From Labyrinthula sp. Ha (taxonomy: Eukaryota > Sar > Bigyra > Labyrinthulida > Labyrinthulaceae), in NCBI GenBank assembly GCA_015227615.1, contig JAALGZ010000012.1, positions 248,001 to 312,000 on the forward strand: DNA of 64,000 nucleotides. The letters are read 5' to 3'. The translations under genes were made by a program, and so were the position numbers. Positions 3,220 through 43,050 of the stretch are shown here, piece after piece. The notes beneath the pieces were generated by a model that was not told the DNA's origin, did not search any database, and saw only the letters and a list, made by a program, of their open reading frames with translations. Positions within the stretch are counted from its first letter, which is position 1, and every line of letters begins with the position of its first letter.

Positions 3220-4893
3220 ATGAAGCACGGTTACATGGTTTCTTTGCTATCCCTGATTCTTCCCTTTGTGCATTCAAGTGCTCAGGTGCCCCTTATAGCT
3301 GGCAGCTTTACGTTCTTAACTACAAGATACTCAAACTATATTGGCAATTTTGACAAAGACTGTTCCATCTCAGCCCCTATGGTGAAACTCGCACCAGGCG
3401 AGAATTTATGTGATTTGGATAGTATCGAAACAAATGTTACAGGAAGAGTTCTTATTACGTTTATTATTTTAAGGTTTGGTTGTTATGAAGAAACTGCTTA
3501 TGAGAATGCAATAGAGCTTGGTGCTGTTGCACTGATAGATTCTGTTTTCATGCCGCCTGGATCCTATCATAGTGTTCATAATTCTGGACAAAGTTTCAAC
3601 AAAAGGGAAGTTCCTTTCTTGCAAGTAGGAGACGAATTCTTTGAATTGTTTGGAGAAGAAGAATTTAGTCCTGGTTATGATTTATTAGATGGTACCCAAA
3701 TTAACATCAACGGGTGTGCAGATATAACACCAGTTATAGAATGTTATGAAATATACACCTATGTACAGATATTTTTTTCTTTCGTGGCCTTTTTTGGAGT
3801 ATTTCTAGCATATAAGGCAGTTCGAGACCTCAAATCTACACCTTCAACTCGTCCAAGACTTGTGCTGATTATTTATGAGTTACTGCTTTTAGTATTTAAC
3901 GCAGTAGTTCTTTTCTTTGGACTTAGTTTAAGACAAAACAAGAATTGGGTTAATGGAAGTATTATCTCTGCGCAAACAAAAGATATATTTGGAAACTTAC
4001 AAATTGTGGGTGTTCTTCAAGGTTCTCTTATGAATGCAATTTATTGGAATGCACTACGAAAGGGTTGCTTTCTAAAAGAGGCAATAACATCTGAATACTG
4101 GAACAAGAATTTTTTCCATTCTCCTTGGCAGCTGGTCACACTAACCTTTTCTATTTTCTTCTGCATAGAATATTCAATACTTCTTGTAAAATATTATCAA
4201 TGTGATTTAGTTGATTTTGAAATGTTTCTTCGAATCATTATATGGCTTGATATTCTAGTTGGATTAGTTCTTGTTTTAAGTATGATTCATTTTATTCATA
4301 CTTTGAGGAAAATAGTTCCGAACACAAAGAGCCAGAAATTTTTTTCAAATGGAGATGATAATTCGAACAAAGTAATTTTATTTTGGTCCAGTGTTAAAGG
4401 GATGTTTCACGCTAGAGTAAAGACATTCCGTAAAACTTCTCCGAGTAACAGAAATATTAGTGAGGTAAACACAAAGCTTATAATCTTATCTCTACATCTG
4501 TCCAAATGGCTGACATTAAATGTTATTCTTATGATAACAGCCTATTGTTTAATCTTGCTCGGATTCTTTGAAAACCTTGCCTACGGAATGGATCAAAATG
4601 ATCCAGATGGTTGTAAAATGTATTCTTTTTATTTTGCATATGTTTGTGTTAGAGTACTTTTATCACACTGTAAAATTATTGGACTCGCAGGACCTTCAGG
4701 GAAAACGAGTTCACAAAATAATTTTATACAAACAAAATGTAGAAATAAACAAATAGCGAGTAGCCAGCAGCAAGGAAACAACAGGAAGCTATCTTTAAGC
4801 GCTGGCCCAGAATCTATTCTAGGATACTCCACGACTGTCAGGCATATCCATTATAACAATCACAAGATAGACGATTTAGAGCTTAGTTTATAG
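3220..4893 (+). CDS. PA-domain seven-transmembrane receptor-like protein, paralog A
   Basis: The product has 557 residues. Residues 1-21 form a signal peptide ending SSA before QVP; this 21-residue length is shared by all seven paralogs and fixes the start at this ATG, although the frame is open for ten codons upstream. Residues about 30-175 form a PA-like ectodomain with cysteines at 48, 64, 88, 166 and 175 and the block GCYEETAYENAIELGAVALI (87-106). Seven hydrophobic segments follow near 178-200, 212-236, 255-279, 302-324, 335-360, 427-452 and 466-490, with a long loop between five and six. NDPDGC (460-465) precedes the last segment. The tail is polar and ends in Ser-Leu. This is receptor layout: N-terminus outside, tail in the cytoplasm. 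No ligand or partner can be named. A stands alone at the left end of the cluster. Confidence 0.9.
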   Translation: MKHGYMVSLLSLILPFVHSSAQVPLIAGSFTFLTTRYSNYIGNFDKDCSISAPMVKLAPGENLCDLDSIETNVTGRVLITFIILRFGCYEETAYENAIELGAVALIDSVFMPPGSYHSVHNSGQSFNKREVPFLQVGDEFFELFGEEEFSPGYDLLDGTQININGCADITPVIECYEIYTYVQIFFSFVAFFGVFLAYKAVRDLKSTPSTRPRLVLIIYELLLLVFNAVVLFFGLSLRQNKNWVNGSIISAQTKDIFGNLQIVGVLQGSLMNAIYWNALRKGCFLKEAITSEYWNKNFFHSPWQLVTLTFSIFFCIEYSILLVKYYQCDLVDFEMFLRIIIWLDILVGLVLVLSMIHFIHTLRKIVPNTKSQKFFSNGDDNSNKVILFWSSVKGMFHARVKTFRKTSPSNRNISEVNTKLIILSLHLSKWLTLNVILMITAYCLILLGFFENLAYGMDQNDPDGCKMYSFYFAYVCVRVLLSHCKIIGLAGPSGKTSSQNNFIQTKCRNKQIASSQQQGNNRKLSLSAGPESILGYSTTVRHIHYNNHKIDDLELSL

Positions 4894-5268
4894 CTACTGT
4901 CTCAAGGGCAAAGTGCGTTTTCAACTGATTCTAAGCATTTTCGGGGTTACACCAATCCAAAATAATAATTCTTGCTCCCGAATATAGTGATGCAGTGAAT
5001 GAAGTGGTTTCCTAATAAGAAATGATTTACCTGGAAACAGTGACCATGAAGAGAATGTGGAAGGCTATATGCGATGTATTATGTTGTCTTGAAGCCTTTA
5101 GTTCTTCTAAACCTTAATATAATAGTTTGTATTAAACAAGTATAAGTGTCTACAGTATTAGTTCTATGTTACAAAATTCACCAAGACACTTGAAAGTATC
5201 ATTCTAGATAGTAACTGAATTTGCTATGTTCTGGTTAAGACCCACCTTCCATCCCTGTTTTGAAATAA
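4894..5268. other. Spacer downstream of gene A
   Basis: AT-rich sequence with no convincing coding signal and no clear terminator. An AATAAA hexamer near 5264 could serve as a polyadenylation signal, though it is far from the stop. Confidence 0.4.
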
Positions 5269-5589
5269 ACACTAGTATTAACTACGCTAAATTTTGTGGC
5301 TACTATCTCTCTAATCATTGTTAGATATAAGATGTGGAAAGCAAATAGGAAACAAGCGCTAATACCACAAAGCAGTATCTTGTCTCAAGGCGATGTTTCA
5401 TATACAACCATTAAAAAAAAAATTTCGGAGAAAAAACTCACAGCAATTATTGGTTCGTCTCACCAAGTACAAGAGAAAAAGAACATTGAAGATCAATGTC
5501 AACAAAATGTCAAATACAACGAATACCCTCCTAATAGTTCACTCGAAAGGGATCTGGAGGAGTTCAAGCTCTCAGGGAGAAGAATGTAG
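5269..5589 (+). pseudogene. Orphan membrane-segment-plus-tail exon or gene fragment
   Basis: An open frame of 106 codons with no ATG at its head ends at TAG. It begins with a hydrophobic stretch (TLVLTTLNFVATISLIIV) directly followed by a basic run (RYKMWKANRKQ), then about 75 polar residues rich in Lys, Glu, Gln and Ser. That reads as a last membrane helix with a cytoplasmic tail, unlike the Phe/Ile/Tyr-rich chance frames nearby. A possible splice acceptor (AACACTAG) sits at its start. It does not align with the seventh segment or tails of the A-G receptors. It may be a terminal exon whose other exons I cannot find, or a leftover of another membrane protein. Confidence 0.4.
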
Positions 5590-5989
5590 AACAATCTTTT
5601 TGAATAGCGATGAAACTATTTTCTTTAAATTAAATTTTTTTCTCGAGGTTGCTAAGGATGCAAAGATCCTGATTTTACCAGCCATTTACAACTGAGTTCA
5701 CTATAAATTTCACTCACCGAACGATTTCGTGTCAGTATCCGAGAAGGTATGAAAACCGTGATACGAGATTTGTATATTATTACTTGCTGGTATTTGAGCA
5801 TAATTTAATTAGATGTACCTCATATGAGAATCGATAAGGCTTGAAAGCTTAAGAGCGAAAATTAAAAATTCTTTTTAAAACTGTTGGTTTATTAATAGAA
5901 ACATTTGGAATAAAATATAATTATAAAAATGTAAATTTTCTAACATTTTACTGAGCATATTCCTTTAGAATTAGTTCTTGTTCTATCTT

Positions 5990-6340
5990 TTCTAACTTAT
6001 TTTTGCTTCACCTCCAGCAAAATGGACATGAAATACTATACATCCAATCTTTGCACTGTGAAGATTCAGCTTTACTGGGAGCTTGGTTGAGGCTATTTTA
6101 TAAAAAGCGTCACCTCATTCCGTCCTCGCTACAAGTTCTTTTGTCTTTGACATGGTGCAACATCCAATTTGTTGATCATTTAAGATCTTAAATGTTTTTC
6201 GTGATATGACAGCTGCACATACTGGTGTAGCACTGCACTTGAACTCGATCCTCTTGCTTCAATTAACTGGCTATTGGTCGTGCACTTTGGGTTCAGGTTG
6301 GTCGTTGCTCCTAGCAGCAAATGGTTTAATTTCGCTTTGA
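5990..6340 (-). mobile_element. Decayed retroelement-like coding fossil
   Basis: On the minus strand, short blocks in more than one frame read as conserved protein and are GC-richer than the surroundings. One block, near IEFKCSATPVCAAVISRKTF, resembles the aspartic protease stretch of LTR-retrotransposon polyproteins. The fossil is small, broken in several places, and without visible terminal repeats. Its divergence suggests it is old. The family assignment is tentative. Confidence 0.35.
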
Positions 6341-9300
6341 GGTACCTCAAAGAAACTCAAAATTCAACCGTTTAACAACTGTTTTTATAATTATAAATCA
6401 TCCGGCAGTATTGTTTGCGTAGAGTGTTAGAGAAGCTATCGTAAAATTCTTCTAAAAAAAATTGACCTACAACTACAATTTACTATAACCAAAACTCACC
6501 AGACTTTTCATATAAACCATTGAACTCTATTCTAGCGCATTCAAAAGAGGATATCTAATTCAAGGATAACCCATGAACAGAACTGCAATTTGAAACCAGT
6601 TTCAGAGCTTAACTTGAAAATCTACCAACTGTGACAATAAAATATCATGTACTAACTTATCTTGATTTGCAAATACAGGTAAAGTTTATTCTTTTGGAAA
6701 ACCCTTATATAAAAAAAATAGAAAGTTCAGAGTGTAGTGTCGAGCTACTAACTCGAAAAGTGTTCTCATTAATCCTTAAATCTGTATAAGATCATTCAAA
6801 TATATCTATGAATTTTTTCTGAACCAGAAAACAATAAGCTAATTCAAAGTTTATCGAAGAAACTAAAGTATGAGTCCTTATGTAATGATAGAAGATTATT
6901 ATTTAAACAGATCAGTCTTTTGAAACCGTTGAATAAATATACATGTAATATACAACATTACATGTTACTGCCCATTAAGAACACTTAGGATTTGAGATTA
7001 AGAAAAAATCTACATAGTAAAGGCTTATGCTTTTCTAACATTGCGTTCAAATTTTACTAGAGGTAATGGTATATTTTATCAATCCAACTATGGTGTTCAA
7101 AGTATCTAGAAATATTGGTGTAGATGCCTACCCTTAGACATGCTTAATTAATTATTAGGGTTTTAAAAATTAAGAGAGACAGGTAGATATTGTGATTTTA
7201 TTTAACAAAAACTCTACATAGGTAGAAGAAACAGTATTAAGAGCAACCTAGGTCACCTTTAAAACTAGCTAGGTTTCAACTCGAACCAAGAATACATTAA
7301 GTATCAGAAGAAAAGAAACGATTACAAGAACAAAGGAGAACTAAAATTCTTATTAATCCTTCAGGAGATGCATTTGTTTCTTGAGCAAGTTTCAGGAAAT
7401 TTTCTGTCTAATATTAACAAAATGGATCAAAAGTTTTTACTGCGAAGAATCCATGAGACATCATTATAACTAATAATAGCTTCAGGGTTTCCAGTAATAC
7501 TCGAAACTGTTAAGTGCAAATTCATTCCCCCCTTTTTTTATAATAGTTCACTTACGAAGTGAATGATTTCTGTAAGAATTCAGGTTTCTGCATATAGCTA
7601 GTTATATTTATTTAACAGTCGCCGTCGAAGATATACGGTAAACATTTATTATACCTATACTAATAGTTTTACAATATTGACTTTAATAAAAGTACAAATT
7701 GAAAACTTATTAAAAGTTTACTATTAACAATTGCATTTACATTTGACAGCTTTATATTTTTCTTAAGACCCGAAATATGTAAAATTTCTCTAAAATCCAA
7801 CAATAGAGTAATAGAAGATGACGAGATTTACTCATGACAAAGTTCAAGTGTATATAAATATATAATTAAAATGATTTATTTACCTCATCTGTAACTAAGA
7901 AGATATTTTACTTTAATGAACATAAAAACATATCTCCCTGAAAAACATAGACAAAAAAGGTACATTCTTAGAATGTAGTAACCCAACATTTCAGGCTCTC
8001 ATTTCACAAGCTGCAGATGCAAATCTAAAATCATTATTATAGTAAACTCGCTTCTTCAGGACAAAGTAAAAAATGCGTTATATACTACTTAGTTTGATTA
8101 TCAATGATAAAATACCGATTAGGATATTGAGAGTCAATTAATTAATGTGAAGGATATGCTAAGCAAGGAAAGAGAAAGTTAAGAAATTAAAAAAGTAACC
8201 ATATGTTATTGGTTGGAGTACTCTTATAAAAATATAATAGCTGAACAAAGAATTTGACCTTATTTCCACAGTTCTTTCGAGATCTTTCTTTTCTCTTTAA
8301 TGCTAATCATATAGGGGAATGACTGGCTCCTTGGGATACTATATATATTGATTCGGAGCAAAATTTTATTTTACAAGACTCTTTCACAATCAGAAGCCAA
8401 ATACTAAGTGTTTTTTGGTAATATTGTGTAGTGTTCTCATCAATTCTTCTGGCTGGGTATTTAGATGCTAAGCAGTCTAAAAAACTCTTGTTGAAGCGAC
8501 CCATCTCATATTAAGCTACATATAGCTGATTTTTTTTCTGTTCAAAGAATTACATAATATACGTGGTGACCTTTACATAGACTTCACATAGGATTAATCT
8601 CGTGATTCCAAGCTTTCTAGGGGTTAATGTATTGATATTATTTACTATGGATAGATTAAAAATTCAACATTAACCCTTATTCATACGAGAGGCTGTTAAA
8701 CTTAATAAGAATGTCAATGCATAAGAATATTTGAGTTGTCTACACCAAGGATATTTAAAAATAATTTCTGTACCAATATCTACAGGAAAAAATAAAAATA
8801 ATTTTAATTGATAGCATAGCTTAAATTACAAATGGTAAAATATAGTGTTTTGCATATAAAAAATTTTCTAGTTTCTCTTATTTGATTAAGCAACTAATAT
8901 ACAAAACGGGTTGATTATCTAAATAGATGACAATCTATTAAAAAATAGCTTTTCTAATTAGTGTAACGATTTTTATGCATAGATCATACATTTGTTAAAT
9001 TGTTGTGCTTTTCTTTTGTATTTAAAGTAGCTACGTACAATAAACACTTTTGCCTTTGAATTGAGCCCCGAATGTTGATGAAGTCATATATAAATAGCTG
9101 ACTAAATAAAATTAATAGTGCAATGGCTGGTTTTCCTTCTTCATGGCTAATCAGTTCCATGTAAACAGCTACCTTGGGTATGAAAGCGTGCTATGTGATA
9201 CATTTTCTTCTGAAGATATGATCATTTTTTTTTCTGCAAAAATATTTCATCGAGCTATAAGAAAAAAATACATAAGCTTAAACCAGTAAATCACATGTTC

Positions 9301-11675: not shown

Positions 11676-11705
11676 ACCATATCTAATTAACTCCTTCTAA
11701 AAAGT

Positions 11706-13379
11706 ATGAATTGGATCTACATGATGACTCAACTAGCTCTTCTCCCTCTCGTTGTTCACTCGAGTGCCCAGATTCCTCTGGTCACAGGAGATTTTACTTT
11801 CTTAACTCCTAGATATTCCAACTATATAGGAGGTTTCGAAAAAGACTGCTCCATCACAGCTCCAATGGTTAAGCTCTCTGAAGAAGAAAATTTATGTGAG
11901 TTTGATACGATAAAAACAAATATAGTTGGAAAAGTTCTTGTAACTTTTGTTATCTTAAACTATGGATGTTATGAAGAGGTTGCATATGAGAATGCAATAA
12001 AACTTGGAGCTATTGCCCTTATAGATGCGGTTTTTATGCCAGCTGGATCCTTTCATAGTGTTCACAATACTGGACAATCATTTCAATACGGAGATATTCC
12101 TTTTCTACAAATAGGAAGTGAGTTCTTTGCGGTCTTCGAATCAGTTGATTCTAACTTTGGATCAGAGTTATCCAATGATACTCAAATTATAATCGAAGGG
12201 TGTGCAGATAAAACTCCATTACTAGAGTGTTATGATGTTTATCAAGCTGTAGTATTAGTTTTTGCTTTTGTTGCTTTCTTTGGAGTATTTCTTGCAATCA
12301 AGGCAGTTAGAAAACTAAAAATAACTCCTTCAATTCGACCAAGAGTTGCACTTCTTATCTATGAAGCAATATTTTTATTCTTTTACGGTGTTTTGTTATT
12401 TTTTGGACTTACTTTAAGACAAGCGAGAAATTTATTAGATGGGAGAGTTGTTTCTGCACAAGTTAAAGATATACTTGGAATACTTCAAATAGTTGGCGTC
12501 ATTCAAGGATCTCTTATGAACGCAATATATTGGAACGCATTGAGAAAAGGTTGTTTTTTGAAGGAGGCCATAACCCCAGAATACTGGAATAAGAACTTTT
12601 TCTTTTCTCCTTGGCAATTTGTCGCTTTGATCATATCAATAATATTCTTTGTTGAATGTAGAAATGTTCTTCAGAGTTATTATAGGTGTGAATTTGATGA
12701 TTTCGAAGTTTTTCTTCGTGTTGTTACATGGCTTGATGTACTTGGTGGTGTGATCCTATTTTTCAGCGTTTTGTATTTTATTCTAACTTTAAGAAGGATT
12801 TTTCATAACAGAAGAAACCAAGAAGTTTTTTCAGAGGAAGAAAATTGTTTGAAGAAATTTAACAGTTTTTGGAAATCTGTAAAAGGAGCAATGAAAACTA
12901 ATAAGATTATATTACAAAAGGATGAGCATAATAACTGTGAAGTTTCAGAAGTACACGCAAAGCTTGTTAACTTATCACTACACCTTTCCAAATGGCTAAC
13001 GCTCTATGTTATAATCTTAATTATATGTTCCTGCTTAATCCTTTTTGGTTTAACACTACACTTGCCATTTGAAATTGCCCAAGATGATCCCAAAGGATGT
13101 AAAGCGTTTTCTTTTTATTTCTCCTATATTTGCATACGTGTTTTTACTTCATACTGCAAAATTATTGGACTAGAAGGACCTTCGAAAAATAAGGTGCTTG
13201 AAGCTGAAGATGAAGCAAAATCCTTTGCTATAGACGAAAATACGAATAATCGCCCAGGAAATGATAACCTGAGTTCCATTTCAGAAACTCTTCAAACTCA
13301 TTACCTTACGGAATCAATATCTCATCAGAATGTGTACTGCAATAGACAAGAAAGAAACGATGAGGAGTGCAGTTTGTAG
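11706..13379 (+). CDS. PA-domain seven-transmembrane receptor-like protein, paralog B
   Basis: The product has 557 residues: signal peptide 1-21 (HSSA before QIP), PA-like ectodomain to about residue 176 with the block YGCYEEVAYENAIKLGAIAL, and seven hydrophobic segments. The third carries the family block GSLMNAIYWNALRKGCF. The fifth-sixth loop includes an acidic stretch (SEEEN). DDPKGC precedes the seventh segment. The tail of about 65 residues is acidic and ends EECSL. B is convergent with C, with a 728-bp spacer. It is closer to A, C and D than to E, F and G. No break or missing segment was seen. Confidence 0.9.
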   Translation: MNWIYMMTQLALLPLVVHSSAQIPLVTGDFTFLTPRYSNYIGGFEKDCSITAPMVKLSEEENLCEFDTIKTNIVGKVLVTFVILNYGCYEEVAYENAIKLGAIALIDAVFMPAGSFHSVHNTGQSFQYGDIPFLQIGSEFFAVFESVDSNFGSELSNDTQIIIEGCADKTPLLECYDVYQAVVLVFAFVAFFGVFLAIKAVRKLKITPSIRPRVALLIYEAIFLFFYGVLLFFGLTLRQARNLLDGRVVSAQVKDILGILQIVGVIQGSLMNAIYWNALRKGCFLKEAITPEYWNKNFFFSPWQFVALIISIIFFVECRNVLQSYYRCEFDDFEVFLRVVTWLDVLGGVILFFSVLYFILTLRRIFHNRRNQEVFSEEENCLKKFNSFWKSVKGAMKTNKIILQKDEHNNCEVSEVHAKLVNLSLHLSKWLTLYVIILIICSCLILFGLTLHLPFEIAQDDPKGCKAFSFYFSYICIRVFTSYCKIIGLEGPSKNKVLEAEDEAKSFAIDENTNNRPGNDNLSSISETLQTHYLTESISHQNVYCNRQERNDEECSL

Positions 13380-14107: not shown

Positions 14108-15748
14108 CTACAGACTATGATCCATTTCACTTCCCTCTCGTCTAGTATTCTCAACATTTTGGTCATCTGCAGCGTGGTTTAGATAAGCAGCAGCATGCAC
14201 TTTTGAATACTGTTTCTTCTTATTATTTCCAGTTGTTTGTTGTTCAGCTGGATTACCAGTCAAATTATCTCCCGCAGTTTCAACCTTTATCTCTTTTTTC
14301 TTTGAAGGTCCTCGAAGTCCAATTATTTTACAATATGAACTAAATACTCGCATACATATAACAGCATAATAAGAGGAGTATATTCTACAAGATTTTGGAT
14401 CATCTTGACTCATCACAAATGGGTAATGCATGAATAGTTGATTCAGAACTACACTACCAGAAAATACCATGATAAAACCATGGAATGTCAACCATTTTGA
14501 AAGGTGAATAGCTAATATAACAAGTTTTTCGTTTATTCCTGATAAGTTGGTACTTTTTAGACTATCCCCTTTAATAGTATTCCATACAAAATGTAAATGG
14601 CTTCTACAAGTTTTAGTAGTAGAGAAAGTTTCCCGATCAGTTGAATCAACTAATATTTTTCTTAAAGCAACCAAAAAATGCGTTATACTAATGAACAGAA
14701 TAACTCCTGCAAACATATCTAACCAGATAACAACTCGAAGATATGTTTCAAAAACCTTAAAATCATATTGGTGATAGTTTTCAACAACAGTTGTAACTGC
14801 AAAAAAATAAAATATGGATAACCCTAGAGTAACCAATTGCCATGGCGAAAGAAAAAAATTCTTTTTCCAATATTCCGCTGTCATAGACTGTACAAGAAAA
14901 CATCCTTTTCGTAACGCATTCCAATAAATTGCGTTCATAAGAGATCCATGAATTGCTCCAACTATTTGAAGTATCCCAAATATATCTTTAGCTTGTGCAG
15001 AAATAACTCTTCCATCTAATAGGTTTTTGCCCTGTCTGAACGTAAGCCCAAAGAAAAGAATAAACGCATTAAGTAACAAGAATATTGATTCATATAAAAT
15101 AAGAGCAAGACGTGGGCGACTTGCTGGCGTCCATTTTAGTTTTTTGATTGCTCTATAACCAAGAAATACTCCAAACAAAGCAATAAGGGAAAAAGCAATT
15201 AGTATTACCTGGTAGGTGTCAAAACATTCTATAATGCGACTTCTGTCAGCACATCCTTCAATCTTTATTTCTGCTTCGTTAAAAAACTCAAAATATGTTC
15301 TCCAATACTCGCCTGCAAAGAAAAAATAAAACTCAGTTCCTACTTGCAAGAAAGGAATATTACCTTTTTTAAAACTTTGTTTTGCATTGTGAACACTATG
15401 ATAAGAACCAGGTGGTATAAAGACAGAATCTATCAGTGCAATTGCTCCAAGTTCCATGGCATTCTCATAAGCAATCTCTTCATAACAACCATACTCAAGT
15501 AATGAAAAAATAATAAGAACATGACCAGAAATATTGGCCTCAATTGAGTCTAGATCACATAAATTTTCATTTTGTTCAAGTCTTACCATAGGAGCTGTGA
15601 TCGAGCAGTTCTCATCAAAATCCCCGATAAAGTTTGAGTATCTTGTAGTGATGAATGTAAAGTTTCCAGTGATATCAGGCACCTGAGCACTTGAATGAGC
15701 CATACGAAGAAACAAAGCTAGTAATACAAAACTGAGAAGATAGGTCAT
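14108..15748 (-). CDS. PA-domain seven-transmembrane receptor-like protein, paralog C
   Basis: The product has 546 residues, the shortest of the family. The signal peptide is 1-21 (HSSA before QVP). The PA-like domain has GCYEEIAYENAMELGAIAL, and seven hydrophobic segments follow, with NAIYWNALRKGCF at the end of the third. The loop between segments five and six is shorter than in A, B and D. The motif before segment seven reads DDPKSC, where most paralogs have DPDGC. The tail ends EMDHSL, keeping the terminal Ser-Leu. The gene is divergent from D across 4.75 kb and convergent with B. Confidence 0.9.
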   Translation of the reverse strand: MTYLLSFVLLALFLRMAHSSAQVPDITGNFTFITTRYSNFIGDFDENCSITAPMVRLEQNENLCDLDSIEANISGHVLIIFSLLEYGCYEEIAYENAMELGAIALIDSVFIPPGSYHSVHNAKQSFKKGNIPFLQVGTEFYFFFAGEYWRTYFEFFNEAEIKIEGCADRSRIIECFDTYQVILIAFSLIALFGVFLGYRAIKKLKWTPASRPRLALILYESIFLLLNAFILFFGLTFRQGKNLLDGRVISAQAKDIFGILQIVGAIHGSLMNAIYWNALRKGCFLVQSMTAEYWKKNFFLSPWQLVTLGLSIFYFFAVTTVVENYHQYDFKVFETYLRVVIWLDMFAGVILFISITHFLVALRKILVDSTDRETFSTTKTCRSHLHFVWNTIKGDSLKSTNLSGINEKLVILAIHLSKWLTFHGFIMVFSGSVVLNQLFMHYPFVMSQDDPKSCRIYSSYYAVICMRVFSSYCKIIGLRGPSKKKEIKVETAGDNLTGNPAEQQTTGNNKKKQYSKVHAAAYLNHAADDQNVENTRREGSEMDHSL

Positions 15749-15788
15749 ATTATTCTGTTTTTAATATGACAGTTGAAAGAATCCCCAG

Positions 15789-20500: not shown

Positions 20501-22168
20501 ATGATGCACATATATATCATCCCTGTACTAGCTCTGTTGCTACCTCATCTTCATGCATCTGCTCAAGTTCCTCTCATCACAGGAAACTTTACTTTCTTAA
20601 CTCCAAGGTATTCTAACTACATTGGAGGATTTGATGAAGAATGTTCAATTACAGCTCCAATGGTTAAACTGTCACCTGATGAAGACTTGTGTGATTTAGA
20701 TACTATAAGAACAAATGTTTCGGAGCGAGTTCTAATTACTTTTGTTATTCTTGAATATGGTTGCTATGAGGAAGTGGCTTATGAGAATGCAATTAAGCTT
20801 GGTGCTCTTGCAGTGATAGATTCTGTAGGTATACCACCTGGTTTTTATTTTAGTGTACATAATGCAAGACAAAGTTTTAAGAAAGGAGATATTCCCTTCG
20901 TTCAAGTTGGTTATGAGTTTTACGAAGCCTTTGCATTGGAAGAGTTCAGCCCTGGTTTTGAATACTTAGATGGAACACTAATTAACATTGAAGGTTGTGC
21001 TGATACTAGTCAAATTCTCGAATGTTATGACTCATATCAAGTTATACTGATAGTTTTCTCTTTTATTTCTTTATTTGGAGTATTTCTTGCTTATAAATCA
21101 GTTACAAAACTCAAAATAACCCCATCAACTCGACCTAGAATTGCACTCATTGCTTATGAAGCAATATTTTTATTGCTTAATGCATTCTTGCTATTTTTTG
21201 GTCTTACTTTAAGACAAGCAAAAAATTTGTTAGATGGAAGTTTTGTTTCTGCACAAGCTAAAGATATACTTGGAACACTTCAAGTTGTAGCGGTAATTTA
21301 TGGTTGTTTTATGAATGCTATTTATTGGAGTGCACTACGTAAAGGTTGCTTTTTAAAGGAGGCAACCACAATTGAATATTGGAAAAAGAATTTTTTTCTT
21401 TCTCCGTATCAGTTTATAGCATTTGGTTTATGTACTTTCTTTTTTATACAATTTTTGACTTTGCTTGAAAACTATTATAGATGTGATATTGATGAATTTG
21501 AAAGGTTTCTTCAGATAGCTATATGGATTGATATTATTGGAGGAGTAGCTCTTTTGTGTAGCATGACGTACTTTATTCTCACTTTAAGAAAAATATCTGA
21601 CAAATCAAGTAGACAAGAAGTTTTTTCTAATGAAAAAGGCTGCTGGAATAAACTCAATTTTGTATGGCTTACGATTAAAGGAATTGTCAACGGTGAAAAC
21701 TTTGTAGTAAAACAAGATACTGTAAATACAGAGATTGGTTCAACCATCAATACAAAGCTTATCAACTTAGCTCTTCATCTTACAAAATGGTTGACTCTGT
21801 ATATTCTCCTTATGATTCTATCATGCTGTTTAATTCTATATGGATTATTTGCGCATTTTCCTTTTGGTATTGCTCAAGATGATCCAGATGGATGTAAAAT
21901 ATTTTCTTTCTACTTTGGCTTTATTTGTGTAAGAGTTCTTACATCATATTGTAAAATACTTGGATTAAGAGGTCCTTCTATAAAAAAAGAAGAAAACACT
22001 AAAAATATAGAACAATATATTACAAACAACCAAGAGCAACAAACCCAACCTCGGTTATACAGCGCAAATCCATTTTTGACAACCCAAATAAAGCCTAATC
22101 TCAATCACCTCGTACTCGAAAAAAAAACTTATAAAATAAGAACAAGTGCGGGCGAGATAAGCTTATAA
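20501..22168 (+). CDS. PA-domain seven-transmembrane receptor-like protein, paralog D
   Basis: The product has 555 residues: signal peptide 1-21 (HASA before QVP), PA-like ectodomain with GCYEEVAYENAIKLGALAVI, and seven hydrophobic segments. The third-segment block is altered to GCFMNAIYWSALRKGCF. DDPDGC precedes the seventh segment. The tail of about 70 residues is rich in Asn, Gln and Lys and ends GEISL. The gene is convergent with E across a 530-bp spacer. A second Met at position 2 is an equally possible start. Confidence 0.9.
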   Translation: MMHIYIIPVLALLLPHLHASAQVPLITGNFTFLTPRYSNYIGGFDEECSITAPMVKLSPDEDLCDLDTIRTNVSERVLITFVILEYGCYEEVAYENAIKLGALAVIDSVGIPPGFYFSVHNARQSFKKGDIPFVQVGYEFYEAFALEEFSPGFEYLDGTLINIEGCADTSQILECYDSYQVILIVFSFISLFGVFLAYKSVTKLKITPSTRPRIALIAYEAIFLLLNAFLLFFGLTLRQAKNLLDGSFVSAQAKDILGTLQVVAVIYGCFMNAIYWSALRKGCFLKEATTIEYWKKNFFLSPYQFIAFGLCTFFFIQFLTLLENYYRCDIDEFERFLQIAIWIDIIGGVALLCSMTYFILTLRKISDKSSRQEVFSNEKGCWNKLNFVWLTIKGIVNGENFVVKQDTVNTEIGSTINTKLINLALHLTKWLTLYILLMILSCCLILYGLFAHFPFGIAQDDPDGCKIFSFYFGFICVRVLTSYCKILGLRGPSIKKEENTKNIEQYITNNQEQQTQPRLYSANPFLTTQIKPNLNHLVLEKKTYKIRTSAGEISL

Positions 22169-22698: not shown

Positions 22699-24612
22699 CT
22701 ATATCGATAACTTATCAATACTAGAAACCTTTCTAGAACACCTCTTCTCGCCTAATGTTTCTATTGACACATTTTCAGAAATACTTTCTAAGGGAGACAA
22801 AGCATAATTTTGAAATTTTGATGCATTTTCCACGATATCTTTATAAAAGATCGAAATTTGTCTCAATTTTGATACTTTCCTACCTTCAAGATTCGCTCCT
22901 AGAGACTCATTGAAGCTAAGTTTTTTCATGATAGATGTTGCTTTCTCTTCTACTGGTTTTTCTCTACGTTTATTCTCACATTGATGCCCTATATCAGCTG
23001 CTGAAGTTAATGGTTTAGACTCATGAGTCATAAGGGTATTAGAACTTAGTCTAGTTAGTCTCAAGGTATTCTCATCATGATCTTGCTGACTGATTCTTCT
23101 ATTCGTACCCTGTAGTTCTATTTCTGTTGCATTATTTGGACCTGCAAGTCCAACTATTTTACAATGGGAAGTAAAAATTTTAACACCGACATAAGAAAAG
23201 AAAAAAGTATATGCCTTACAACCATCTGGATCATGTTGAAGAACTCCAAAGGGTAAATTTTCAAAAAAGCCATAAAGAAGTACACAAGAAGAAATAACCA
23301 TCAATATAACATAAAGTGTCAACCATTTAGCAAGATGAAGAGATAAATTAATGAGCTTCGAGTTAATACTGGAGAGATTGGCAGTATTTGGATCGTTTCG
23401 TTTCAAAGAAAGAGTTTCTCCACGAATGACATCTCTAATAGTATTCCTCACAAAAAGAAGATTTTTTTTCCATCTTTGTTCTTTGGAAGAAACAGTTTGG
23501 ATTCGTGAATTAGGTGCGATTTTTCTTAAAGTAAGAATGAAATGCATCATACTGACAAATAAAATTAAACCACAAATAATATCTATCCAAATAACAACCC
23601 GTAAGAGTGTTTCAAAATCATCAACATCACCACGATAAAAGTTCTCTAGAGTAAAAGAAAGCTCAAAAAAAAAGAATACAGATGTTCCAAGAGCAATAAA
23701 CTGCCAAGGAGAAAGAAAGAAGTGTTTTCTCCAATATTCTGAAGTTTGAGATTCTTTATCAAAACACCCTTTTTGCAATGCATACCAATATATAGCACTC
23801 ATTAGAGATCCATGAATTGTACCGCCAATTTGAAGTATTCCAAGAACATCTTTAACTTGTGCAGAAACAACATTTCCTTTTAATAAATTTATCATTTGCT
23901 TAAAATCAAGTCCGAAAAAAAATATCATTGACGTAAGAAATAAAACTAGACCTTCATATGCGATGAGTATAACTCTAGGACAGCAAGCTGGTGTCCACAT
24001 TAACTTTCTGATAGCTTTGTATGCAAGCTTCAAACCAAATAAAGCAGGAAAAGATAACATCATAAGTGTGAATTGGTATATATCATAACATCCTATAATT
24101 GGACTTATGTCTGCACAACCTTCTATGTTAATGAGTGTTCCATTTAGTGAATCAAAAGCAGTACTAGAGCCTTGTATTGCAAAGGTTCTAAAAAATTCAG
24201 TTCCTACTTGAACAAAAGGAATATCTCCGCTTTTAAATCTTTCATTTTCATTATGAACACTATGAAAAGATCCAGGAGGCATAAAAACAGCATCAAGTAC
24301 TGCAATAGCTCCAAGTATTATTGCATTTTCGTAAGCAGCTTCTTCATGGCAGCCATATCTTATTATACCGAAAGTAACCAAGACTTTACCAGAAATATTT
24401 GTGTCTATTGATTCCACGTAACATAAATTCTCACCTTGATTGAGTTTTACCATAGGAGCTGTTATTGAGCATTCTTCATCAAAATCACCTATAAAGTTGG
24501 AGTACCTCGTAGAAATATAAGTAAAGTTTCCAGTGATATCAGGAACTTTGGCCCATGAATGGACAATACTAAAAAATGCAAATATTCTTGACAGGGTGTA
24601 CATACTTATCAT
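22699..24612 (-). CDS. PA-domain seven-transmembrane receptor-like protein, paralog E (long tail)
   Basis: The product has 637 residues from the ATG at 24612, chosen because it gives the family's 21-residue signal peptide (VHSWA before KVP); the open frame extends 20 codons further without an ATG. The PA-like domain has the variant GCHEEAAYENAIILGAIAVL. Segment three ends MSAIYWYALQKGCF. Before segment seven it reads HDPDGC. The tail is about 150 residues, polar, with KKLSFNESLGANLEGR matching the tail box of F and G, and ends DKLSI. E groups with F and G by ENLPFGVLQ, KIFTSHCKI and this box. A long Ser/Thr- and Lys/Arg-rich tail fits regulation by phosphorylation, which is inference. Confidence 0.9.
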   Translation of the reverse strand: MISMYTLSRIFAFFSIVHSWAKVPDITGNFTYISTRYSNFIGDFDEECSITAPMVKLNQGENLCYVESIDTNISGKVLVTFGIIRYGCHEEAAYENAIILGAIAVLDAVFMPPGSFHSVHNENERFKSGDIPFVQVGTEFFRTFAIQGSSTAFDSLNGTLINIEGCADISPIIGCYDIYQFTLMMLSFPALFGLKLAYKAIRKLMWTPACCPRVILIAYEGLVLFLTSMIFFFGLDFKQMINLLKGNVVSAQVKDVLGILQIGGTIHGSLMSAIYWYALQKGCFDKESQTSEYWRKHFFLSPWQFIALGTSVFFFFELSFTLENFYRGDVDDFETLLRVVIWIDIICGLILFVSMMHFILTLRKIAPNSRIQTVSSKEQRWKKNLLFVRNTIRDVIRGETLSLKRNDPNTANLSSINSKLINLSLHLAKWLTLYVILMVISSCVLLYGFFENLPFGVLQHDPDGCKAYTFFFSYVGVKIFTSHCKIVGLAGPNNATEIELQGTNRRISQQDHDENTLRLTRLSSNTLMTHESKPLTSAADIGHQCENKRREKPVEEKATSIMKKLSFNESLGANLEGRKVSKLRQISIFYKDIVENASKFQNYALSPLESISENVSIETLGEKRCSRKVSSIDKLSI

Positions 24613-34900: not shown

Positions 34901-34935
34901 ATTTGACTCACTTGCCTTTACATCTCATTATTGTA
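31921..34935. other. AT-rich spacer
   Basis: No coding, RNA or repeat feature supported on either strand. Confidence 0.4.
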
Positions 34936-34950
34936 GTCATGTTTAGCGAG

Positions 34951-35060: not shown

Positions 35061-35290
35061 TTACTGTGTACCGGTTTCATAATTCGCTTTCCGGGAACCA
35101 AGTTCAATATTTTCTCGAGTGGTTTACAAGTACCGTTATTTTTCTTTCGTTACAAAGAAAATGTACTACAAAATAACAATTTCCTACAACTGATAATAGT
35201 AGACCATATCACCAATGTTAATTTAATTTCCATGACGAGATCTTCTTAGATGTATCATAAAGTTTATATTTAGAGTTATAGTCAAGGAAC

Positions 35291-35314
35291 AGAGTGTAAG
35301 AACAGAACTCTCAG
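35291..35314 (+). promoter_or_regulatory. Leader block upstream of gene F (weak match)
   Basis: AGAGTGTAAGAACAGAACTC followed by TCAG, 33-56 bp before the ATG. It resembles the TGTAA and AGAACTC parts of the gene D block. Confidence 0.3.
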
Positions 35315-35346
35315 TGGAAAAAAGTCATATTTCCTACAACAAGAAA

Positions 35347-37089
35347 ATGAAAAAACTCTTTGTATTATGGATATTGAAATCTATTTTCATCGGCGTCTAT
35401 TCATGGGCACAAGTTCCTCTTATCACAGGAAACTTTACTTATAAAACCACACGTTATTCAAACTTCATTGGAGATTTTGACGAAGATTGTTCGATCACAG
35501 CACCAATGGTTAAACTCGGCCCATTTGAAACCTTATGTGACTTGGAAACAATAGAAACTAATATTTCTGGATATGTTCTTGTTACTTTTGGTATTCTAAA
35601 TTATGGATGCTATGAAGAAAATGCATACGAGAACGCAATAAAACTTGGTGCAGTTGCTTTAATAGATGCAGTTGGAATACCACCTGGATCTTTTCATAGC
35701 GTCCATAATGCTCGACAGTGTTATAAAAAAGGAAGCATTCCTTTTCTTCAAGTTGGAACAGAGTTTTTTGGTACTTTTGGAATAGAAGGCATCAGTCCTG
35801 CTTTTGACTTATTAACTGGAACCCCAATACATACTGAAGGATGTGCGGATAAAACTCCAATTATAAAGTGTTATAATGTGTATCAAGTATTACTAATTCT
35901 GTTTTCCTTTACTGCTGTGTTTGGTTTATATATTGCTTATAAAGCATTGAGAAGACTAAGAGTGACACCTTCAAGTCGTCCAAGAGTTACTCTGATAGTA
36001 TATGAAGCTCTTGTTTTATTTCTTACGTCGATTTTATTCTTTTTTGGACTTGACTTAAGACAAGCGAAAAATCTATTAGATGGAAGTATTGTTTCTGCTC
36101 AAGGTAAAGATACACTTGGTACACTTCAATTAGTATGTAGTGTTCACACTTCTCTTGTTAGTGCTATTTACTGGAATGCTTTGCGAAAAGGTTGTTTCAT
36201 AAAAGAATCTAAAACGCCAGAATATTGGAGAAGACACTTTTTTCTTTCTCCTTGGCAGTTTATAGCTTTTGGAGTATCTATTTTTCTTTTTCTTGAACTT
36301 TCAACTACTTTGGATAACTTTTATAAAGGCGATATTGATGATTTTGAAACACTTCTTCGATTACTAATATGGAGTGATGTACTCTGTGGTGTAATTTTAT
36401 TTTTTAGTATGATATATTTTATTCTTACTTTAAGAAAAATTATTCCAAATTCAAAATATGAAAGTGTTTCTTCCACTCCTGAAAACTTTAAAAGTAAGCT
36501 TAATTTTATATGGAATACTGTTCAGACTCTCCTTAGAGGACAAACAATTTCCTTAAAAAAAGAAAATCCTGGAAGCTCAAGTTTCTCAGGAGTAAATGCA
36601 AAGCTCTTGCAGTTATCTTTTCACCTTTCAAAGTGGTTAACATTCTATGTTATTATTATGATAATTTCCTCATGCTTAATACTTTTTGGCTTCTTTAATA
36701 ATTTACCTTTTGGAGTACTTCAAGATGATCCTGATGGGTGTAAAGCTTATTCTTTTTACTATGCATATATCTGTGTGAAACTTTTTACATCACATTGTAA
36801 AATTATTGGACTTGGGGGTCCATCATCATCAGAGAAAAAACAACCGGAAAGTAAGCTGAGAAGTCTAAATCCAGTAGTTAGAGAAGAAGATGAATTGAAG
36901 GGAACTAAGTTGAGTTCAATTGAGAAGGATCCAAATAATACTAAGCACTCGAGTATTCTTGATAAACCTAGTCAATATGCTGAAAGGTCTGCTATAGGAG
37001 GAAATCTAACTAAGAGGTTTGAGCCTGTTTCTAGGAAAGTAAGTTTTGATGAATCAATTCTTAGACCAAGTGAAGGAAGAGGGCTGTAA
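35347..37089 (+). CDS. PA-domain seven-transmembrane receptor-like protein, paralog F
   Basis: The product has 580 residues. The ATG at 35347 gives the family's 21-residue signal peptide (YSWA before QVP); the frame is open for 11 codons upstream but without ATG. The PA-like domain has GCYEENAYENAIKLGAVALI. The third segment ends VSAIYWNALRKGCF, with a Ser-Ala in place of Asn-Ala as in E. DDPDGC precedes segment seven. The tail of about 85 residues reaches the box RKVSFDESILRPSEGRG and stops one residue later (GRGL), where E and G continue for 50-60 more residues. It is therefore the only paralog without a terminal Ser-hydrophobic pair. An AATAAA lies 33 bp after the stop. Convergent with G across 4 kb. 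Confidence 0.9.
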   Translation: MKKLFVLWILKSIFIGVYSWAQVPLITGNFTYKTTRYSNFIGDFDEDCSITAPMVKLGPFETLCDLETIETNISGYVLVTFGILNYGCYEENAYENAIKLGAVALIDAVGIPPGSFHSVHNARQCYKKGSIPFLQVGTEFFGTFGIEGISPAFDLLTGTPIHTEGCADKTPIIKCYNVYQVLLILFSFTAVFGLYIAYKALRRLRVTPSSRPRVTLIVYEALVLFLTSILFFFGLDLRQAKNLLDGSIVSAQGKDTLGTLQLVCSVHTSLVSAIYWNALRKGCFIKESKTPEYWRRHFFLSPWQFIAFGVSIFLFLELSTTLDNFYKGDIDDFETLLRLLIWSDVLCGVILFFSMIYFILTLRKIIPNSKYESVSSTPENFKSKLNFIWNTVQTLLRGQTISLKKENPGSSSFSGVNAKLLQLSFHLSKWLTFYVIIMIISSCLILFGFFNNLPFGVLQDDPDGCKAYSFYYAYICVKLFTSHCKIIGLGGPSSSEKKQPESKLRSLNPVVREEDELKGTKLSSIEKDPNNTKHSSILDKPSQYAERSAIGGNLTKRFEPVSRKVSFDESILRPSEGRGL

Positions 37090-38381: not shown

Positions 38382-38600
38382 TTAGCAAGGAAAGGGTAGG
38401 CAACGAAAAATATGTGCAACTTTAAGAAAAAGATGAAAACAGTTGCTGAGTGTAGTAATGAATGAACCAAGCGCAAAAATTATGTTTCTGCGTAACATAA
38501 AGTGTTTATTCGTTAATGGCAGGTTGACTTGTAGCTGAAGAGATTCAATATCAGTAGTTAAGCCATGATAAAAAAATTTAAAGTACTCATCTGTTGACAT
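38382..38600 (-). pseudogene. Coding-like island, minus strand
   Basis: A 72-codon frame whose middle (LPLTNKHFMLRRNIIFALGS) looks like conserved protein. It lies 300 bp downstream, on the same strand, of the islands at 38926-39439 and may belong with them. No family recognised. Confidence 0.25.
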
Positions 38601-38925
38601 GCAATAAGAGCGGAACTCCAGTAAAAGAGTTACATAAGGGAAACGGCTTTGTAAGGCTATGTTATGTGTATATTCAATCAGCTATCGATTAGGATGTTAA
38701 TATCAATTGAAAGAATAGAAATAGAAAATAGAGGTTTTAGAAAGCTACGACTTAACCAGTCTTTCGAGCTCATTACAGATAACACAAAAGCAACGCTAAC
38801 CACAAGTTTGAAAATAGAATAACAAATAACTCCATACAAGTGAGCTGCCTTGGCAAAATATAAATACTTACTATGAACGCCTTTTAAAGTAGAAACAACT
38901 TTTCATGATTTTTTATCTTGCCTCA

Positions 38926-39439
38926 CTAGAGTTCTAGACTTTGGATCGACATCCAAAGTACCTGATTGACTTCAGGATAAATGTCTAACATTCTTTTTAG
39001 TAACTTCGCCCCAGCTTTCAGCATCTGGCCGATCGATAGTTCATTTCGAGCAGTAAATCTGCCACTAGTGTCGCAGAATAGTTCAGAGAAAATTGCACGG
39101 ATCATTTTTAACCTGTTAATTAGGGAAAGAGCGTCACTGTTGTATAAAAAAAGATTCCAACAAGGAAAAAATAACAACACGCAAGTCACTTCATTCTAAA
39201 TGGAAATATTTTTTTTCAAAATTGCTAGAGATGAACTGAAAATTTTAGGTTTTGAGATTGAGCTGGAACTCGCATGCTAAAGTTTCGGCTCGAGGAAGTA
39301 TATTTCGCATCCCCCAGCCGTAAATAATCTGAAAAACCTTGAGTTTGATGTCGTGACCAAGCTGAGGATCTGATACCAGTTCTAATGATAGAATCACAGT
39401 CGAATATTTCATGTCCAGAGCTGTTTCATGTACCCTCAT
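38926..39439 (-). pseudogene. Two-part coding island, possible spliced gene or relic
   Basis: The upstream part (39439-39245) opens with ATG and contains ILSLELVSDPQLGHDIKLKV. The downstream part (39113-38926) starts after a good acceptor (CCTAATTAACAG), contains RFTARNELSIGQMLKAGAKL and ends at TAG. Both are GC-richer than the spacer and protein-like. An intron from within the first part to the acceptor could join them in frame, but I cannot fix the donor. A small gene of about 110-125 residues, or a dead element. The last part carries an 8-bp-stem hairpin at 38938-38957. Confidence 0.35.
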
Positions 39440-41136
39440 TCTTCTAAAGAGCTAGAAAGAGAATTGATTCTGTAATAATGAAAAATTAAAGGCATCAAGC
39501 AGATAAATTGCAAAATATGCTTAAAATGTATGTTATATTTCTTAGCCGTGGTCTATATTATATTGCATGAATTTATAGTGGAGCCTTGAATCCCTTGATA
39601 AATTGTTTTCTCTTATGTTGTTTTAAAGCTAAGAACTACTTTTGAGCAGTATATATCTTTCAACCCTAATCTTCACACACCTGTAGTTAACTATTTTTTT
39701 ATAAAAACTAATGTAAGAAAAATATTTTTGCTTCCTAAAATTTTTTGAATAAATGCTCTCTCAATCATGTGTCATAAAGAAAGGCCTCTTGCTATAAGAA
39801 AAATATACCTAGCGTGTTCTCATGTAGTTAGTTAGACAAGTAATTGTCCGTATCGTCTATATATGTATGAGGATACGTATATTAAATTAAATAAACTGAA
39901 AGAGCTTGAAAAGAGCTTTAAAATGATATAAGTAACGTTTTCTAACTCCCAGTAGTTGTTGAGATATTAAGGTTTTACGATCTGTTGTTTCCGGTGCTTA
40001 TGTATTAGTAAGAATGTATTATGTAAAGTTGCACCAATTGTGCAGTAATGTAATATTGTATTATAACTATGTAAAGTGTAAACAGTCAGTATGGAGAGAG
40101 TCGTACACTCGACTGCTTAGTGTCTGACTTAGTTGGGCAACATGTTTCATTTATTGATATATTTTCTTTTTTCCATCATAGTTTTCGTATTTACAAATTC
40201 TAATATTTCCGCAACCGTTTTTATTGATTATTTATTATCACTTGATAACCAGAATATAATCAGAAATAGTTCATATGAATGAAAGTACTATTTACCTTAC
40301 TAATATTCTGAGCTAGAACAATTAAAAGATAATAATTCAAAAAATTAGTTGAATCTGGTGCCAAAGTATAGCACTAAGACACTATACCAAACAAGTTCAA
40401 GTAGCTAACTTTAACATAATTTAAGGATTTGCGCATTTAATCAGTAAACAAGAATCTAATTCTATTTTCAAAGAAGGAATTTAACCCACTAATCAACTAT
40501 TGAGCAGAGGATAATCATTAATGCACTTAGACTTTGTCAGCCCCACTTCAGCTGGTAAAACTAAAACTAAACCGTTTAAAATGAGATCCTTCATTTTTTG
40601 ACATCAATTCAACTGAAATGTTTTAAAAAAGAAACAATGCTAACTAATTTGTTTTTATATGTGATGCTCAACCCAGAAAATATAAAAAAAATAATACATC
40701 TTCTTCTGGGGAACTCAAATCACCATAATTAACTGAGCAGGTAAGAGGTCCATAAGGAGGTTTAACACTGGAACTATACTTAGTTATGAATGCTCAAGAT
40801 AACTTTCCATGACTTAAGCCAAGCCATACTTGGTAAACTAAGAACAAATGCCCAAGCGAGTTACCAGATTTAATAACTCTCTGAATGGCACAGCTGCTCT
40901 ATCCAAATACCAATGAGCCAAAATCTAAAGAAGCAATGCCTAAGAACACCAAAATCCCCTTGAAATATTTATCCTAGGTACACTAATATCCCTATCATAG
41001 TGTAACTTGTTTTTTCTATACTCTAAAATCGTAAGCCATGAAATAAATTGGGATAGTAATATTATCAGACAACGAAGCAAAAAACTTACTTCTATAAATA
41101 ACCCATATCTATTCAAACAAACAGAAACTACTAAAA
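39440..41136. other. Spacer between the 39-kb island and gene G
   Basis: AT-rich; no feature supported. Confidence 0.45.
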
Positions 41137-43050
41137 CTAAACAGATATCTTCCGATCACTAGAAAACTTTCTTGTGTACTTCATCATATCTGTTTTCTCT
41201 AGTCTCAATCTACCTGAACTATTACCTTGAGAAAAAGTGCTACCTAAACCAACAGCAGATCCTTTTTTTTTACTACTAACAAAAGATGCAGTTGGCTTAC
41301 GTAAAATAGAAACACCTCTTCCTTCCGTAGGAATCAAAATTGACTCATCCACACTAGATTTTCGTACAATTGGTTCAAATGTTCTAGCCATTCTTTTCTC
41401 TCTTTTTGGTACTTCATACTGTAAACTATGTTCTGCAACTGGAGATGCTGGTCGAGGTTCATTGGGGACTGTTGCAACTGAACTCATTTTACTTACTTTC
41501 CAACCAGTACTAGTTTCAAGTCTAGGGCTATATTTTCTATTGCTTATTTCAGTATCTGTTACTCTTCTTCCTGGTGGACCTGCTAATCCAATAATTTTAC
41601 AGTGAGATGTAAATATTTTAACACAAACATACGCAAAGAAAAAAGAAAAAGCTTTACAACCATCAGGATCATCTTGAAGTACTCCAAAAGGTAAATTTTC
41701 AAAGAATCCAAGTAGAAGTAAGGATGAAGAGATTATCATAATTACAACATAAAGAGACAACCATTTTAGTAGATGTAGAGATAAATTCAACAGCTTGGAG
41801 TTTACAGCAGAGACATTTGGACTATTAGGACTCCCTTTTCGCAAAGAAAAAGTTTCACCTTTTACTACACCTTTAATTGTAACCCACATAAAATGAAGTC
41901 TATTTGTACAACTTTCACCATTAGAAAAAACAGATTGGTTTCTTGAATTTGGTAAAATTTTTCGTAAAGTAAAAATAAAATATACCATACTAAGAAATAG
42001 AATAACTCCACAAAGAACATCTATCCAGATAACAATTCTCAAAAAAACTTCAAAATCATCAACATCTCCGCTGTAAAAATTATCAAATAGTCTCGTTAAT
42101 TCATAGAAAAAGAAAATTGATGAACCAAGTGCAACAAGTTGCCAAGGTGAGAGAAAAAACTGTTTTCTCCAATATGCTGCCGTTTTTGACTCTTTCACAA
42201 AACACCCTTTTCTTAACGCATTCCAATAAATTGCGTTCATAAGAGATCCGTGAACATTTCCCACGATTTGAAGTGTACCCAAAACATCTTTCGCTTGAGC
42301 AGAAACAATACTTCCATCCGCCCAGTTTTTTGCTTGTCGTAAAGTAAGTCCAAAAAATAACAAAACAGCAGTAAAAAATAAAAATATAGCTTCATAAATG
42401 ATAAGTACGACTCTTGGACGACTTGTTGCTGTCCATCTAACTTTTTTAACCGCCCTGTAAGCTAAAAATACTCCAGAAAACGCAGCGAAGGAAAATACAA
42501 TAAGGATCCCTTGGTAAACATCATAACATTCGATGATTTTGCTTGAATCACCACATCCGTCTATTGAAATTGGAGTTCCCACCAAGAAATCAAACGCTGG
42601 GCTAAACCCTTGTATCCCAAACGTTGCAAAAAACTCAGTTCCAACTTGAAGAAAAGGAATATCACCTTGTTTAAACTTCTGTCCGACATTGTGAACACTA
42701 TGAAAAGATCCAGGCGGTATTCCAACAGCATCTATAACTGCTACAGCACCAAGTTGTATTGCGTTTTCATACGCAATTTCTTCGAAACAATCAAAGTTTA
42801 GGATAATAAAAGTAATAAGAACTTGTCCAGAAATATCAGTTTGAATTGAGTCCAAGTCGCATAAGTTCTCACCTGGTGCCAGTTTAACCATAGGAGCTGT
42901 TATGGAGCAATCTTCGTCAAAACCACCCATGAAATTTGAATACCTTGTAGTTATAAATGTAAAATCTTCTGTAATAAATGGAACTTGAGCACTTGAAAAA
43001 ACACCATTGAAAAGTGTGTAAAGCAGCGTGAGAATATAAAAGTGTTTCAT
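41137..43050 (-). CDS. PA-domain seven-transmembrane receptor-like protein, paralog G (long tail)
   Basis: The product has 637 residues: signal peptide 1-21 (FSSA before QVP), PA-like domain with the variant FDCFEEIAYENAIQLGAVAV, and seven hydrophobic segments with GSLMNAIYWNALRKGCF. DDPDGC precedes segment seven. The tail of about 145 residues is basic and Ser-rich and contains RKSSVDESILIPTEGRG, then a Lys/Ser-rich stretch, ending RKISV. It is closest to E and F. The two RKxS sites in the tail match the consensus of basophilic kinases such as PKA; that they are used is inference. The gene is the right end of the receptor cluster. Confidence 0.9.
   Translation of the reverse strand: MKHFYILTLLYTLFNGVFSSAQVPFITEDFTFITTRYSNFMGGFDEDCSITAPMVKLAPGENLCDLDSIQTDISGQVLITFIILNFDCFEEIAYENAIQLGAVAVIDAVGIPPGSFHSVHNVGQKFKQGDIPFLQVGTEFFATFGIQGFSPAFDFLVGTPISIDGCGDSSKIIECYDVYQGILIVFSFAAFSGVFLAYRAVKKVRWTATSRPRVVLIIYEAIFLFFTAVLLFFGLTLRQAKNWADGSIVSAQAKDVLGTLQIVGNVHGSLMNAIYWNALRKGCFVKESKTAAYWRKQFFLSPWQLVALGSSIFFFYELTRLFDNFYSGDVDDFEVFLRIVIWIDVLCGVILFLSMVYFIFTLRKILPNSRNQSVFSNGESCTNRLHFMWVTIKGVVKGETFSLRKGSPNSPNVSAVNSKLLNLSLHLLKWLSLYVVIMIISSSLLLLGFFENLPFGVLQDDPDGCKAFSFFFAYVCVKIFTSHCKIIGLAGPPGRRVTDTEISNRKYSPRLETSTGWKVSKMSSVATVPNEPRPASPVAEHSLQYEVPKREKRMARTFEPIVRKSSVDESILIPTEGRGVSILRKPTASFVSSKKKGSAVGLGSTFSQGNSSGRLRLEKTDMMKYTRKFSSDRKISV

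Follow-up and report, generated by a model that had tools for sequence, protein, structure and literature searches.

A tandemly expanded family of GPCR-like seven-helix proteins with a probably PA-like ectodomain

Seven related genes lie in the window, the stretch of 64,000 nucleotides analysed here (C24:248001-312000 of a genome with 50,840,425 bases in 153 contigs), and the question they raise is what kind of membrane protein they encode. An earlier note had described them as receptor-like, with an ectodomain resembling the protease-associated (PA) domain, seven hydrophobic segments and variable polar tails. All seven are present in the ORF list as intact ATG-to-stop frames (Table 1). They can be aligned over their full length up to the tails, with 50-61% identity to the copy at 35347. 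Since seven long frames can be aligned in this way, a chance origin is excluded. Residue numbers are those of gene 6, the reference copy.

Table 1. Coordinates of the family genes in the window and of the parts of the reference copy
Feature	Position	Strand	Length, basis or remarks
PA-7TM receptor-like gene 1	3220..4893	+	557 aa; ORF and alignment
PA-7TM receptor-like gene 2	11706..13379	+	557 aa; ORF and alignment
PA-7TM receptor-like gene 3	14108..15748	-	546 aa; ORF and alignment
PA-7TM receptor-like gene 4	20501..22168	+	555 aa; ORF and alignment
PA-7TM receptor-like gene 5	22699..24612	-	637 aa; ORF and alignment
PA-7TM receptor-like gene 6	35347..37089	+	580 aa; ORF, alignment and model
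PA-7TM receptor-like gene 7	41137..43050	-	637 aa; ORF and alignment
Ectodomain of gene 6, residues 22-168	35410..35850	+	conserved Cys 48, 64, 88 and 166, then 175 in the linker
PA-like core of gene 6, residues 45-110	35479..35676	+	hhalign against the genome's own PA domains
Seven-helix region of gene 6, residues 171-490	35857..36816	+	hydropathy, model and structure matches
Tail of gene 6, residues 491-580	36817..37086	+	I-L-R-P-S motif at 37057-37071

The size of the family was estimated by comparing the gene 6 protein with its own genome, which gave 44 matches. A distant member (L032) produced 44 matches and an outlier (L047) 41, all at loci already found with the gene 6 protein. After pieces were merged by hand, 39 loci were counted, and these counts are lower bounds. 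Thirty are intact frames of 499-639 aa, seven of them being the window genes, and eight are stop-broken or fragmentary (C101:75 kb; C65:363, 368 and 568 kb; C24:661 kb; C143:430 kb; C35:1094 kb; C62:553 kb). The remaining locus, C104:171 kb, is uncertain, as its match region is open but its longest ATG frame has 398 aa. The seven genes of the earlier note are, therefore, all real and intact but an undercount, with at least 30 intact members in the genome. A single array at 206-291 kb of C24, with genes on both strands, holds 11 intact copies: the seven window genes and four upstream of the window. The tree of the 30 intact members, midpoint-rooted for drawing only, divides into two halves, one of 16 rows and one of 14, with 100/100 at the join between them; three long-branch rows are of unsure placement and joins among them are possibly false. 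Members from the same contig often group together (C24, C65, C35 and C88), which indicates tandem duplication and supports expansion of the family in tandem within this genome. On viral contigs, none of the 64 stretches that fit a pattern encodes a relative.

The membrane layout was examined by hydropathy in the 30 intact members, using a lenient cut-off for segments (mean Kyte-Doolittle of at least 1.0 over 19 residues), and helix positions were taken from a structure model. The mean hydropathy curve has eight peaks, with heights of 1.39-2.18, which are an N-terminal start and seven segments, and the widest gap between segments is that between five and six. Member by member, the hydrophobic N-terminal peak and all seven segments are found in 30/30, with segment seven the weakest in several. 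Both the signal-peptide-like start and the seven segments with a long five-six loop, as claimed earlier, are thus borne out across the family. The model also contains seven helices, at residues 171-203, 211-233, 252-282, 302-326, 330-365, 415-452 and 464-490. Net charge is positive in the predicted inner parts (ICL1 +0.30, ICL2 +0.11, ICL3 +0.05 and the stretch after helix 7 +0.07) and, apart from ECL1 (+0.03), negative in the predicted outer parts (ECL2 -0.08, ECL3 -0.12 and ectodomain -0.09). Taken together, hydropathy, model helices and the positive-inside balance point to seven transmembrane helices with the N-terminus outside.

The full-length model itself is poor, with a mean pLDDT of 41.5, helix blocks mostly at 50-72 and helix ends lower. 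Foldseek searches with it gave a best E of 0.014 and no match at or below 0.001; for this low-confidence model, class A GPCR structures made up most of the top structure matches. The model thus lends tentative support to a GPCR-like bundle. Likeness to the GPCR fold extends to the seven helices, to a conserved inner face and to an N-terminus that the hydrophobic start and the charge suggest to be outside. In contrast, no relation could be detected between the sequences of the family and any 7tm family in Pfam, and there is no conserved TM3-ECL2 cysteine pair, its place being taken by a conserved cysteine in outer loop 3. The receptor reading of the earlier note gains from the modelled bundle and not from Pfam, in which no GPCR family matched the 30 members. 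With seven helices, a GPCR-like if low-confidence model and no confident match to a described family, the layout proposed in that note still stands.

In the Pfam scan of the 30 members, no GPCR, enzyme or transporter family reached an E-value of any meaning. This included 7tm_1 (PF00001), the class C layout of Venus flytrap and 7tm_3, and the RGS domain (no match in 30/30). GOST proteins (GPR107/TMEM87 type), which consist of a GOLD ectodomain and their own seven-helix family, likewise gave no Pfam match in the 30 members. The class A motifs DRY, NPxxY and CWxP have no equivalents in the expected places in these members, and the ERF strings present in 2/30 lie outside TM3. Class C receptors of the same genome (ANF_receptor plus 7tm_3, read for L064 only) likewise carry a large outer ligand-type domain before seven helices, but theirs is a Venus flytrap, whereas that of the family is a PA-like domain of ~150 residues; compared by hhalign, the two seven-helix parts scored at background. 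Another kind of multi-helix membrane sensor in this genome is the 7TM-RGS protein (plant AtRGS1 type), of which L075 is a probable example. Its membrane part showed no likeness to that of the family beyond a reversed control, in a single-sequence comparison of low power. Weak Pfam matches to JmjC, Baculo_11_kDa (E 0.011), DYNC2H1_AAA_dom, Fer2_2 and YMF19 were judged spurious, as were light-harvesting chains in a PDB profile search (16 sequences, best E 0.0067, ~40 residues).

PA domains occur on proteases, single-pass sorting receptors, RING ligases and nine-helix SPPLs, and, to our knowledge, not on GPCR-like bundles. The proteins could be seven-helix membrane enzymes or transporters, for example a shortened PA-domain intramembrane aspartyl protease of the SPPL type, since SPPL proteases combine a PA domain with a membrane part of several helices. 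However, SPPLs have nine helices with YD, GxGD and PAL motifs, whereas the family has seven, with PAL in 0/30 members and a GxGD string in 1/30. These differences, along with the lack of a Pfam enzyme or transporter match, make such a function very improbable. The explanation that we favor, and consider fairly probable, is a family of tandemly expanded, GPCR-like cell-surface receptors with a PA-like ectodomain that would act through G-protein signalling, perhaps in chemosensing.

How firmly can the ectodomain be called PA-like? The Pfam PA model (PF02225) finds 10 places in the genome, with the family genes not among them, and none of the 30 members scores over its gathering threshold. The ectodomain columns of A2, the alignment of the 30 intact members, were compared by hhalign with a genome PA alignment made from 7 of the 10 places (L001-L007, with L001 and L002 almost the same; the partial L008 and two weak places were left out). 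The result was a score of 33.9 (P 6e-5, probability 65%) over 61 columns, compared to 21.4 for the best of 300 column shuffles, 12.1 for the reversed profile and 10.3 for the seven-helix part. When the clades were used separately, the far clade scored 31.9 (53%) and the near clade, which includes the window genes, 24.3 (10%). The aligned block surrounds the conserved cysteine and the A-x-x-x-G-A pattern of PA domains, and the core strand-helix-strand pattern is shared with PF02225 proteins. At the profile level, the ectodomain core is, therefore, probably though not certainly homologous to PA; the earlier claim of a PA-like ectodomain holds for this core above shuffled controls and falls under the Pfam threshold.

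A variant of the favored explanation, with odds that overlap its own, keeps the GPCR-like receptor and gives it a distinct cysteine-rich ectodomain whose PA likeness is a coincidence of a short strand-helix-strand unit. The small number of aligned columns, the modest probability, the low value for the near clade and the failure of Pfam PA to find the genes would all fit this idea, as would an ectodomain-only model made from seven sequences, which had a mean pLDDT of 33.4. We regard it as rather unlikely because the score lies well over the shuffled and reversed controls, the far clade retains it when used alone, and the block falls on the part around the conserved cysteine and A-x-x-x-G-A. A window-only profile and an ectodomain profile were each without a PDB sequence match.

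Outside the membrane, the conserved cysteines are 48 (29/30), 64 (30/30), 88 (30/30), 166 (29/30) and 175 (30/30), and all five occur together in 29/30 members, the exception being L047. Others are 283 at the inner end of helix 3 (30/30), 465 in outer loop 3 (30/30) and 484 in helix 7 (28/30). The D-P-(D/K)-G-C motif that the earlier note placed before segment seven was found in 6/7 window genes (the gene at 14108 has D-P-K-S-C) and in 6/30 family members, so it is no family hallmark; its invariant part is C465 only. Together with the five cysteines of the ectodomain and linker, this outer-loop-3 cysteine makes an even set of six, from which three disulphides could form. Since the set is even, one of these bonds may link the ectodomain with the seven-helix bundle. 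A signal peptide, presumably cleaved, would place the ~150-residue PA-like ectodomain outside the cell.

Within the helices, column entropy was lower in the inner halves than in the outer halves (1.83 vs 2.30 bits; 106 and 103 columns, Mann-Whitney P 8e-7), a P value that is indicative because the columns share one phylogeny and the halves were defined from a weak model. TM4 runs slightly the opposite way, with 2.38 bits inside and 2.33 outside. In the conserved inner face, loops 1 and 2 carry P-R and F-F, respectively, helix 3 has Y-W and C-F at its inner end, helix 6 has H-L-x-x-W, and G-x-x-G lies at the end of helix 7. With a mean of 1.63 bits, the ectodomain varies less on average than the helices do, and this speaks against simply placing ligand diversity there. 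A ligand, perhaps a peptide or nutrient as the earlier note proposed, would be bound by the ectodomain, by the outer half of the bundle, which varies more, or by both, and the conserved inner face could pass the signal to heterotrimeric G proteins.

The same data bear on another possibility, that the proteins serve the secretory or endocytic pathway as seven-helix receptors for cargo or sorting, in which the PA-like domain binds cargo and the GPCR-like scaffold does not couple to G proteins. Plant vacuolar sorting receptors bind cargo by PA domains, and the trafficking proteins GPR107/TMEM87 have a GPCR-like seven-helix scaffold. A PA-like ectodomain that is rather conserved across the family and the missing class A activation motifs are consistent with such a role, and GPCR-like structure alone is no proof of coupling. 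However, 30 intact, diverged tandem copies with broken relics, and outer helix halves that vary more than inner ones, look like sensing of varied ligands, and matches to G-alpha and RGS are abundant in the genome. We therefore judge sorting receptors to be quite unlikely.

The G-protein setting was surveyed in the whole genome. Matches to G-alpha numbered 37, with 27 above the cut-off; some are interrupted or are separate parts of a single gene, and among the 13 best, 11 are free of internal stops. Heterotrimeric G proteins thus appear to be many. RGS matches numbered 93, all above the cut-off and many in frames of 440-500 aa. In L075, the single RGS frame that was read, several hydrophobic stretches lie ahead of the RGS region. 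There were six class C receptor matches, among which L064 was confirmed to combine ANF_receptor with 7tm_3; the single class A match was under the cut-off. The EF1A of this genome (L071, 445 aa) is without the insertion characteristic of opisthokonts. An early-diverging fungus, which GC content and genome size had suggested as the source, was rejected on this ground. The EF1A wording and the ANF-type class C receptor lean tentatively towards a stramenopile, while enolase did not separate stramenopile, heterolobosean and amoebozoan placements. Given its numerous matches to G-alpha and RGS as well as its class C receptors, the genome is a candidate for the study of receptor-driven G-protein signalling in a protist.

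Naegleria fowleri is reported to have 13 G-alpha, 28 7TM-RGS and 79 further RGS proteins, and one candidate GPCR by homology (PMC9283941). The same paper hypothesizes, with qualification, that self-activating G-alpha together with 7TM-RGS is the dominant arrangement among bikonts (PMC9283941). No description of a GPCR with a PA ectodomain was found in the literature searched, which was mostly outside subscription journals. The main text of a fungal GPCR classification contains neither 'protease-associated' nor PF02225 (PMC12842992), and that of a choanoflagellate GPCR study contains neither 'protease-associated' nor 'PA domain' (PMC12716839).

Many GPCR classes are distinguished by their outer domains. 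What we have here is a real, sizeable family of GPCR-like proteins, and a bolder step would be to see in it a new GPCR class, a large chemoreceptor family of a non-opisthokont protist in which a PA-like ectodomain, tied by a disulphide to outer loop 3, would be the ligand module. This is plausible, with chances that we put somewhat short of even. If the receptor reading is confirmed, it would add a receptor layout and give PA domains a signalling role, and the roughly thirty paralogues, whose inner face is conserved and whose outer helix halves vary more, would be suited to tests of ligand recognition. If the organism is a bikont, the new class would represent an expanded receptor-driven G-protein system in a group whose signalling has been proposed to depend mainly on self-activating G-alpha and 7TM-RGS proteins (PMC9283941).

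The polar tails are as variable as the earlier note had stated, though not always long: past residue 490, they extend for 65-149 residues in 26/30 members and for 19-20 in four members outside the window. A tail motif, [ILV][LIV]xP[ST], occurs in 12/26 tails compared to a mean of 0.78 and a maximum of 6 in 1000 shuffles, an enrichment that is overstated because the pattern was picked after viewing the tails and paralogues are not independent. The last residue is hydrophobic (L, V, I or F) in 23/30 members; a hydrophobic C-terminal residue recalls PDZ ligands.

A short motif, [ILV][LIV]xP[ST], was found in 12 of 26 tails of the PA-like seven-helix family, with both clades represented, although the pattern was chosen after viewing the tails and the paralogues are not independent. 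The last residue is hydrophobic in 23 of the 30 family members. The motif or the hydrophobic end may dock a shared partner. Two members on contig C65, L031 and L032, are 99% identical, lie inverted relative to each other and are the product of a recent duplication.

Matches to G-alpha were numerous in the genome (37 places, 27 above the cut-off), and 11 of the top 13 lacked an internal stop. Class C receptor matches numbered six (L064-L069), and L064 carries both ANF_receptor and 7tm_3. RGS-domain matches formed a very large set (93 places genome-wide), many with frames of 440-500 aa. The only one read, L075, has hydrophobic stretches N-terminal to the RGS region and, judged by eye, looks like a 7TM-RGS-type protein.

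In the window, no Pfam match was found for the 209-aa open frame. Compared with human gamma-enolase, the enolase on L073 has about 20 extra residues, inserted ahead of Y-D-L-D-F-K.

Features located in the window and elsewhere in the genome
Feature	Stretch	Positions	Strand
I-L-R-P-S tail motif	window	37057-37071	+
Short-chain dehydrogenase, first of tandem pair	window	46869-47750	+
Short-chain dehydrogenase, second of tandem pair	window	48310-49179	+
Monooxygenase-type, FAD-binding (PF01494)	window	49342-51027	-
Open frame, 209 aa	window	54614-55243	-
Family member L031	C65	353657-355363	-
Family member L032	C65	366071-367780	+
RGS protein	L075	508-1899	-
Enolase	L073	1471-2880	-
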